Under the pieces are notes generated by a model. The model ran no database searches, was not told the origin of the DNA, and was given only the letters and a program-made list of their open reading frames with translations. From Syntrophomonas sp. DTU018 (lineage in GTDB: Bacteria; Bacillota; Syntrophomonadia; Syntrophomonadales; Syntrophomonadaceae), in assembly GCA_001513155.1 (NCBI GenBank), contig LFSR01000030.1:1-33237 (forward strand): a stretch of 33,237 nt of DNA, in the 5' to 3' direction. Shown one piece after another: positions 15,555-33,237 of this stretch. Each line of letters begins with the position of its first letter. Position 1 is the stretch's first letter. Position numbers and translations under genes: made by a program.

Positions 15555-15574
15555 ACCGGGGAAAATCCCCGGTT
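15555..15574 (+). terminator. Left copy of the lonC terminator hairpin (target duplication)
   Basis: A 20-bp hairpin sequence identical to 15727-15746, with arms CCGGGG and CCCCGG around AAAAT. Unlike the right copy it is followed by GAGAGTGTC instead of a T run. It therefore probably represents the half of a terminator duplicated when the element at 15575-15726 inserted. Confidence 0.8.
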
Positions 15575-15726
15575 GAGAGTGTCAAAAAAGTTGCTAAAAG
15601 AGATCGCCACGTCGCTACGCTCCTCGCGATGACATACCAAAAGGCCATCTTATGTGTCATTGCGAGCCCCGGAGGGGCGTGGCAATCTCGAACGTCTAAC
15701 CGCTAATATACTTCTTTGACAGTCTG
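15575..15726. mobile_element. MITE-like palindromic element, copy A (152 bp)
   Basis: A non-coding element with imperfect terminal inverted repeats: GAGAGTGTCAAAAAAG on the left and the complement of CTTCTTTGACAGTCTG on the right, 13 of 16 matching. Inside, a left arm containing ATCGCCACGTCGCT and TCCTCGCGATGACA folds back on TGTCATTGCGAGCCCCGGAG and GGCGTGGCAATCTC. Nearly the whole element can form one hairpin. It is bounded by 20-bp perfect direct repeats that are a terminator stem-loop. A close relative in the same orientation lies at 17328-17481. Confidence 0.75.
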
Positions 15727-15750
15727 ACCGGGGAAAATCCCCGGTTTTTT
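15727..15750 (+). terminator. Right, functional copy of the lonC operon terminator
   Basis: The same CCGGGG/CCCCGG hairpin as at 15555-15574, here followed by a run of T up to 15750. This is likely the working terminator of the rplI-lonC transcript, now displaced by the element. Confidence 0.85.
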
Positions 15751-17213: not shown

Positions 17214-17288
17214 GGGCGCATAACTCAGCGGGAGAGTGCTACCTTCACACGGTAGAAGCCACAGGTTCGAATCCTGTTGCGCCCACCA
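17214..17288 (+). tRNA. tRNA-Val (anticodon CAC)
   Basis: A 75-nt cloverleaf with encoded CCA (17286-17288). Acceptor GGGCGCA/TGCGCCC, anticodon stem CTACC/GGTAG (17239-17243 and 17251-17255) with loop TTCACAC and anticodon CAC at 17246-17248, and T arm with GGTTCGAATCC. CAC reads the valine codon GUG. Confidence 0.95.
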
Positions 17289-17303: not shown

Positions 17304-17327
17304 AGCGAGGGTTACAAGCCCTCGCTT
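17304..17327 (+). terminator. Left copy of tRNA-Val terminator hairpin (target duplication)
   Basis: AGCGAGGG (17304-17311) pairs with CCCTCGCT (17319-17326). It matches the hairpin at 17482-17505 at 23 of 24 positions but lacks a T run. The inserted element begins directly after it. Confidence 0.8.
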
Positions 17328-17481
17328 CAGACTGTCGAAAAAGGCCATGTAAAGAGATCGCCACGTCGCTGCGCTCCTCGCGATGACATACCAAAAGGCC
17401 ATCATATGTGTCATTGCGAGCCCCGGAGGGGCGTGGCAATCTCAAATGTTGAACCGTTAATAGACTTCTTTGACACTCTGT
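17328..17481. mobile_element. MITE-like palindromic element, copy B (154 bp)
   Basis: Same family and orientation as copy A at 15575. The ends are CAGACTGTCGAAAAAG and the complement of CTTCTTTGACACTCTG, 13 of 16 matching as inverted repeats. Internal arms GAGATCGCCACGTCGCTGCG / CTCCTCGCGATGACA and TGTCATTGCGAGCCCCGGAG / GGCGTGGCAATCTC fold into a long hairpin. No coding capacity. It is again flanked by two copies of a terminator hairpin, but a different terminator from copy A, so the duplicated sequence belongs to the target and not to the element. Confidence 0.75.
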
Positions 17482-17509
17482 AGCGAGGGTAACAAGCCCT
17501 CGCTTTTTT
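17482..17509 (+). terminator. Right, functional tRNA-Val terminator
   Basis: AGCGAGGG (17482-17489) and CCCTCGCT (17497-17504) with a following T run to 17509. This is the complete terminator, now 154 bp further from the tRNA. Confidence 0.85.
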
Positions 17510-21634: not shown

Positions 21635-21695
21635 ACAATAAACCCCCTTGTTATTAATAAACTGCAGAATTTATTAAAGTTCTGGTATCGGTTTG

Positions 21696-21761
21696 AGATC
21701 GCCACGCCGCTGGGCTCCTGGTGACGACTATTGTTACTCACCCAAGAGGCGTGGCGATCTA
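21696..21761. repeat. Shortened copy of the dispersed palindrome
   Basis: GAGATCGCCACGCCGCTGGG (from 21696) and, inverted, GAGGCGTGGCGATCT (to 21761) flank a short, altered centre. The outer TGTCAAAGAAG ends are missing. It separates the acyl-CoA ligase from the preceding genes of the cluster. Confidence 0.7.
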
Positions 21762-21774
21762 AAGGGCACAATGG

Positions 21775-29286: not shown

Positions 29287-29773
29287 AGTTTCATTGCTGT
29301 GAAAATGGCTTTCATGTCAGTAAAAAGGCAACCATTGTGTCATCGCGAGCGCGTAGCGCGTGGCGATCTCAATCGGGGAGACAGATAGACGAATGAGATT
29401 GCCGCGCCCCTTTCAGGGGCTCGCAATGACACATAAGAGGACTTTTCATTTATCGTGGCCTGTTCTTCAGGTGATAATTGCGAGCGCGCAGCGCGTGGCA
29501 ATCTCCATGGTCAGCTAACGGCTTAAGCTAACAGATCGCCGCGTCGCTTCGCTCCTCGCGATGACACAGCGCAGCTAAGCGAATGTATTAGGCCGGCTAG
29601 GAGTCCTGGAGCGAGCCGGCTAATACTCCTGGCGTCCGGCTAACACTCCCGCCAAGCCGTGGTGAGCGTTGATCGGCTTAGAGAACGCCCCTTTCGAGGG
29701 CTTGTAACGACACAAAAGGGACGTTTTCATTCATCGCAGCCTGCGCCGTAAGTGACAATTGCCGGTGAGGGGC
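29287..29773. repeat. Composite array of dispersed palindromes
   Basis: The ~525-bp gap (29249-29773) has no gene. It contains several units of the repeat core in both directions: TCATTGCTGTGAAAATGGCT (29292-29311), GTGTCATCGCGAGCGCGTAG near 29337, GAGATTGCCGCGCCCCTTTC / GCTCGCAATGACAC near 29396-29433, AATTGCGAGCGCGCAGCGCG near 29475 and AGATCGCCGCGTCGCTTCGC near 29532. From 29590 there are short GC-rich repeats of CCGGCTAA-ACTCC. It looks like successive insertion and decay of one family. Confidence 0.75.
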
Positions 29774-31903: not shown

Positions 31904-32215
31904 AAACTGGAGGCTCTGGCCCCCGTCATTGTTCGCCAAAGCTAAAGCTCAGGCTCTGACTGTGATAATAGGCCATGATTCTAAAAATAGAACATGGCCC
32001 AGCGTGGCAAAAAAACTTATTAATAGTTGGAAGTTCGAGATTGCCACGGCATTTCGTGCCTCGCAATTGTCACCAGTAGCACAGGCCACGATAAACGAAA
32101 AACCACCTTTCGTGTCATTGCTGTGAAAAGAGCTCTCTTCGTGTCATCGCAAGGAGCGCGTAGCGCGTGGCAATCTCTTTACATGGCCCTTTCTTCATGT
32201 GACACATGAAACATA
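31904..32215. repeat. Non-coding gap with hairpin and dispersed palindrome copy
   Basis: No gene is visible. GGCCATG-TTCTA at 31971-31983 pairs with TAGAA-CATGGCC at 31988-31999 apart from one mismatch; there is no T run after it. From 32036 to 32178 lies a rearranged copy of the dispersed palindrome: GAGATTGCCACGGCATTTCG, then TGTCATTGCTGTGAAAAGAG (from about 32115), then GGAGCGCGTAGCGCGTGGCA and ATCTC. It is just downstream of the minus-strand YhhN gene. Confidence 0.65.
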
Positions 32216-32893: not shown

Positions 32894-33007
32894 GTTTGGC
32901 CCCTCCCCCACAAAATATTAAGTTGATTATATTATATTACAAATTTAACCACGCTTATTGTTCGGGAGAGGCAGAAAAATACAGCTAAGGGAAAAACCAC
33001 TTCAGAC

Positions 33008-33230
33008 TGTCAAAAAAGACCATGTAAACAGATCGCCACGTCGCTTCGCTCCTCGCGATGACATAACCAAAAGCCCATCATATGTGTCATTGCTGTGAAA
33101 ATAGCTCTCACGTCAGAAAAAAGTAACTATAATGTCATTGCTGTGAAAACGGCTTCCTAGTATGTCATGGCTGTGAAAATAGCTCCCAATTGTGTCATTG
33201 CGAGCGCGTAGCGCGTGGCAATCTCTATGG
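33008..33230. repeat. Composite dispersed-palindrome array at window end
   Basis: The left end AGACTGTCAAAAAAGACCAT (33004 onward) and the GATCGCCACGTCGCTTCGCT arm match copies A and B. The right half is replaced by reiterated units starting TGTCAT at 33085, 33133, 33163 and 33193. The first three read TGTCAT-(T/G)GCTGTGAAAA, the last TGTCATTGCGAGCGCGTAG and GCGTGGCAATCTC. The array runs close to the window edge, so its right boundary is unknown. It explains most of the gene-free stretch after 32912. Confidence 0.7.
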
Positions 33231-33237
33231 CAACTAA

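Follow-up and report, generated by a model that had tools for sequence, protein, structure and literature searches.

The window analysed here is a 33,237-nucleotide stretch of Syntrophomonas sp. DTU018, namely contig C13 of a draft genome that comprises 2.56 Mb in 59 contigs (hereafter G000). It contains a tRNA-Val gene and two copies, A and B, of a short MITE, together with a third, larger element that has the same ends (Table 1). As judged from its sequence, the MITE is a non-autonomous element without a transposase gene, in which two IS1182-family ends enclose an unrelated palindromic repeat. As the original prediction had it, copy B is bracketed by a near-identical pair of tRNA-Val terminator hairpins, and copy A is flanked in the same manner by two identical repeats; moreover, the hairpins of the two copies differ, every MITE copy being associated with a different, host-derived hairpin. 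For the third element, a clear hairpin adjoins the right end only.

Table 1. Features of the window discussed in the text
Feature	Position	Strand	Basis or remark
Copy A, upstream hairpin copy ACCGGGGAAAATCCCCGGTT, 20 bp	15555..15574	+	Flank comparison
MITE copy A, 152 bp, ends GAGAGTGTCAAAAAA and TTCTTTGACAGTCTG	15575..15726	+	Flank comparison
Copy A, downstream hairpin copy ACCGGGGAAAATCCCCGGTT, 20 bp, with T-tract	15727..15746	+	Single hairpin here in G003
tRNA-Val gene (anticodon CAC); copy B targets its terminator	17214..17288	+	ARAGORN; Rfam RF00005
Copy B, upstream hairpin copy AGCGAGGGTTACAAGCCCTCGCTT, T-tract gone	17304..17327	+	Direct repeat D1, 23/24 identical
MITE copy B, 153 bp, ends CAGACTGTCGAAAAA and TTCTTTGACACTCTG	17328..17480	+	Genome matches; ends as in the IS1182 element of G259
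Copy B inner part: separate palindromic repeat of wide occurrence, two units	17354..17443	+	Families D2/D4
Copy B, downstream hairpin copy, T-tract kept at 17504-17509	17482..17505	+	Direct repeat; terminator scan
Third, larger element with the same ends	33003..33237 (in window)	+	Extends to contig position 33404 (L136)

The palindromic repeat within the MITE (GAGATCGCCACG...GCGATGACA / TGTCATTGCGAG...GCAATCTC) also occurs without IS1182 ends, both elsewhere in the window (positions 21693-21763, 29339-29565, 32035-32179 and 33027-33227) and in two other genomes (G008 and G013), in each of which its 35-nt core is found alone. Among the other features of the window are a tRNA-Sec gene (124-221), and, 1.8 kb downstream of it, a 45-nt stretch (1951-1995) that is 89% identical to part of that gene and is perhaps a duplicated fragment of it. 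An Rfam DUF3800-VII RNA is matched at 2079-2169 on the minus strand (49.7 bits, E = 2.4e-07).

Empty sites in a sister species

In the sister species G003, the sites of both copies are empty, each with a single hairpin: the empty tRNA-Val site reads TAGCGAGGGTTTTAAGCCCTCGCTTTTTTAA, and the empty copy A site reads ACCGGGGGGCGACCTCCGGTTTTTAG. Because these single-hairpin sites lack the element, the hairpin belongs to the target DNA, its second copy having been produced by the insertion. The comparison supports the proposal that insertion targets terminators and duplicates the hairpin, as does the finding that the hairpins are specific to their sites; it also answers the two doubts attached to that proposal, namely, that the hairpin pairs might be older than the element, which is refuted at both sites, and that the element might carry variable hairpins of its own, which is refuted since the hairpins are host sequence and differ from copy to copy. 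In two further sister species, G001 and G002, the flanks of MITE copies are arranged as in G000, and in G001 a related element occupies the same tRNA-Val hairpin. For a site pair on contig C58, an orthologous empty site was not found. Separately, G001 and G002 carry ORFs that, from their translations, resemble tryptophan-biosynthesis genes (L100 1676-3635 and L101 1194-6060, respectively) between lonB-like and purA-like genes; these ORFs are absent from the same interval in G000 and G003.

Genome-wide survey of the MITE

G000 holds some 50 elements of 114-374 bp, mostly of 152-154 bp; a search with copy B returned at least 41 matches, and a pattern based on the end sequences matched 47 times per strand, versus one or two times for the reversed control. 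The flanking arrangement seen at copies A and B extends well beyond them, since alignment of the flanks reveals hairpin sequence on both sides of all 30 best-scoring copies. These flanks are mostly perfect or near-perfect direct repeats, with a few that have decayed, and they match within a site but not between sites. Three copies in separate places (copy A and those on contigs C56 and C2) are identical over 152 bp; this identity, together with the many perfect duplications, suggests that the MITE family has been active recently.

By a strict repeat score, and with size variants included, direct repeats are present at 41 insertions. The anticipated duplication is borne out, although its length, put at about 20-24 bp, was too narrowly drawn: the repeats span 17-35 bp and track the hairpin. 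The axis of the repeat coincides with that of the hairpin in 35 of the 41 insertions, against 12 of 2050 (0.6%) random windows of equal length drawn from the same loci. The correlation of duplication length with the span of the best stem-loop is weaker (r = 0.53), because pairing between the A-tract and the T-tract lengthens the predicted stem past the duplication, and because long hairpins with bulges are split; of the two measures, the axis test is therefore to be preferred. On these genome comparisons, what is targeted is an intrinsic terminator stem-loop in its entirety, a copy of which appears on the other side of the element, with the length of the duplication following that of the hairpin.

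Consequences for termination

For transcription coming from the upstream gene, a pattern scan predicts a single terminator at each of copies A and B, and this is the downstream hairpin; the upstream hairpin has lost its T-tract to the element. The idea that insertion keeps a working terminator is supported at the level of the sequence, as both the T-tract and the terminator call fall on the downstream hairpin copy alone. Across the 41 duplications, there is a T-tract on the right only in 19 cases, an A-tract on the left only in 8, both in 10 and neither in 4. Where a left A-tract is combined with a right T-tract, each hairpin copy retains one tract, so that transcripts from both directions should still be terminated. 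Since the tracts lie outside the duplication, transcription from either side would meet a complete terminator, and insertion would be nearly neutral. This suggests a safe-site strategy for compact genomes: the element enters between the stem-loop and the T-tract, and the stem-loop is copied, such that transcription from either side still finds a complete terminator.

Search for the mobilising element

No IS1182 transposase was found in the 59-contig draft of G000, although its presence there is not essential to an IS1182 origin for the MITE, and no match to the MITE DNA was found in the plasmid collection. A profile search detects IS1182-type matches in 23 of the 63 genomes of the order. In one of these relatives, a pseudo-element (L146 of G019) has the right end CAGAGTGTCAAAGAA, which is followed directly by a 33-bp hairpin. 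With the L146 protein as query against 398 genomes of the phylum, an intact match was obtained in another Firmicute, G259: an IS1182-family insertion sequence of 1501 bp with a single ORF, which is present in three copies (L254, L273 and L282). Its transposase matches model NF033551 above the cut-off (6e-116) and contains the Pfam domains DUF772 and DDE_Tnp_1_6. The ends of this element, CAGACTGTCAAAGAA and CAGACTGTCAAAAAAG, equal both ends of the MITE; the two elements share CAGACTGTCAAAGAA and CAGACTGTCRAAAAAGG, and in the three individual copies the ends read CAGACTGTCAAAGAAC and CAGACTGTCAAAAAAGG, again as in the MITE. Moreover, all three copies lie inside perfect hairpin duplications (of 34, 22 and 27 bp, respectively), and duplication of the whole hairpin is, therefore, common to the MITE and the autonomous element. 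An IS1182 element of G003 (L141/L144, with ends CAGACTGTGTGA) was considered as a partner and rejected, as it has different ends and lies within a palindrome, without a duplication.

Hairpin duplication among IS1182 relatives

A scan of the GTDB genome collection with a related transposase as query yielded 80 loci, in Bacillus, Neobacillus, Romboutsia, Clostridium, Lachnospiraceae, Christensenellaceae, Enterococcus and others, and these were scored together with the loci from the G-numbered genomes. Direct repeats of 19-35 bp accompany 62 of the relatives, 59 of them free of mismatches, and the centre of the repeat falls exactly on the hairpin in 60 of the 62. A hairpin adjoins both ends in 73 of the 78 readable elements, one end in the other five, and neither end in none; at a random position, a hairpin is equally close in 11% of cases. 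Perfect duplications also occur on plasmids: 27 bp on Enterococcus faecium DO plasmid 2, 22 bp on another E. faecium plasmid and 21 bp on Listeria pLIS32. A single rule, that the duplication is the hairpin, fits these 60 relatives and the MITE; it would explain the variable duplication lengths of the IS1182 family, and should help annotators to locate the ends of its members.

Some intact IS1182 elements have a different hairpin at each end (L183, L186, L187, L211, L228 and L241). These probably arose by recombination between copies, in which case they may mark genome rearrangements.

The order also contains IS1182 groups whose ends read CAGACTGTGTGA or GAGACCACTGAAAAAGT; these are inserted in the middle of a palindrome and have no duplication (L144 1355-2977, L145 1350-2979, L148 1351-2976, L149 1372-3054 and L152 1284-2960); the arms of the palindrome often read GGGGACGG or GGGGACGT. 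They may represent a second, REP-like class of target. In a tree of the transposases, these groups branch outside the duplicating group, and all 40 of the sampled duplicating proteins fall into one clade (support 0.969); because the proteins were sampled by similarity, the tree provides only a weak hint of a single origin of hairpin duplication.

A model for insertion

Taken together, we consider it probable (roughly 0.8) that the MITE derives from an IS1182 element and is mobilised in trans by a DDE transposase of the IS1182 type that joins it to both 5' feet of a terminator stem-loop, duplicating the whole hairpin. The substrate of the enzyme would be an extruded, cruciform hairpin, in which there is one 5' stem-loop foot per strand; each foot would receive one 3' end of the element. 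At the four-way junction, these feet would face each other whatever the length of the stem, and filling of the gaps would then duplicate exactly the hairpin; a stagger of 17-35 bp would be explained, because the feet would meet at the junction irrespective of stem length. The hairpin-duplicating outcome corresponds to pathway b in the model that Wan et al. (2017) put forward for IS1272 (PMC5678879). The mode actually observed for IS1272, the best-studied relative, is, however, loss of the hairpin (PMC5678879), which counts against this explanation, as does the fact that the mobiliser is not seen in place, since G000 is without an IS1182 transposase.

An unlikely, though not negligible, variant retains the same element and enzyme family and dispenses with the cruciform: each arm of the linear inverted repeat would be read by one transposase subunit, as half of a dyad, and cutting would take place at the outer edges with a flexible stagger. 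It too predicts repeats that are centred on inverted repeats, and extruded and linear palindromes look alike in genome data; however, the stagger would have to range from 17 to 35 bp, which is about 1.6 to 3.3 helix turns, with varying register and face, and the arm sequences have no motif in common across sites.

That the mobiliser was instead an IS1634-family element is very improbable. Direct repeats of 8-514 bp are reported for IS1634/IS1549, with no mechanistic model (PMC2266710), and G000 does contain a decayed IS1634-like fragment, on contig C33; yet this is its only trace of such an element and has no matching ends nearby, the corresponding transposase model (NF033559) was not encountered in combination with matching ends, and an IS1182 element that duplicates its target in the same way agrees with the MITE at both ends. 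Hardly any weight can be given to the notion that the hairpin pairs predate the element or travel with it, for which the elements with unlike hairpins at their two ends could be cited: recombination between copies accounts for the mismatched pairs, the hairpin sequence differs at nearly every site while matching within it, and for copies A and B the single-hairpin sites of G003 exclude it. The suggested analogy with single-strand hairpin targeting by the HUH transposases of IS200/IS605 or REP-associated (RAYT) systems, prompted by the hairpin targets and by the short, palindrome-rich element, is contradicted by the terminal inverted repeats and target duplications of the MITE and by the DDE transposases, with DUF772 in the matching autonomous element, of its IS1182-family relatives, and is equally hard to credit.

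Returning to integration at the extruded hairpin, it is possible to generalize: an entire clade of IS1182 transposases, spread across the Firmicutes, would integrate at the junction of an extruded hairpin, with the structure of the DNA, not the enzyme, setting the length of the duplication. This broader reading we would place only slightly on the favourable side of even. If it is true, the same chemistry on the other foot would give the hairpin-deleting mode of IS1272, the duplications of 2-60 bp given for the family would reduce to a single rule, and the elements would report, in living cells, on terminators that are extruded as cruciforms, and may thereby offer an in vivo assay of such extrusion.

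Comparison with known systems

Group IIC introns insert beside intrinsic terminator hairpins, as does the MITE; unlike it, they are retroelements, and have neither hairpin duplication nor terminal inverted repeats. The RUP, BOX, SPRITE and Chunjie MITEs resemble the present element in being short, non-autonomous and intergenic (PMC10969869); the same review of bacterial MITEs mentions no link to IS1182, and describes no MITE that duplicates a terminator. IS1634/IS1549 likewise generate direct repeats of variable length, but these span 8-514 bp, are not linked to hairpins in the part of the report available, and are made by a transposase of another family (PMC2266710).

Within the IS1182 family, for which ISfinder gives duplications of 2-60 bp (as quoted in PMC7335449), IS1272 and TnSha1 of staphylococci target stem-loops and confirmed terminators by structure rather than sequence (PMC5678879, PMC4923244). 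They delete the hairpin wholly or partly and make no target duplication, whereas the MITE keeps the hairpin and doubles it; Furi et al. found them to cut into RNA-seq-confirmed terminators without duplication (PMC4923244). Replacement of the hairpin in the IS1272 manner was not encountered here, as the hairpin is present twice at filled sites and once at empty ones. Hairpin targeting by IS1182 elements, with deletion of the hairpin in IS1272, is known, then, as is the duplicating mode as a model pathway. The rule that the duplication equals the hairpin, its spread, and a MITE that uses it were not found in the open papers and are apparently new, although ISfinder entries or reviews may hold a prior mention. 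In the IS1182 clade with ends CAGACTGT... (NF033551; Enterococcus, Listeria, Bacillus, Romboutsia and Lachnospiraceae), the ends, the target and the duplication of the whole hairpin are the same as those of the MITE, which differs in having no transposase gene and, in its interior, an unrelated palindromic repeat.
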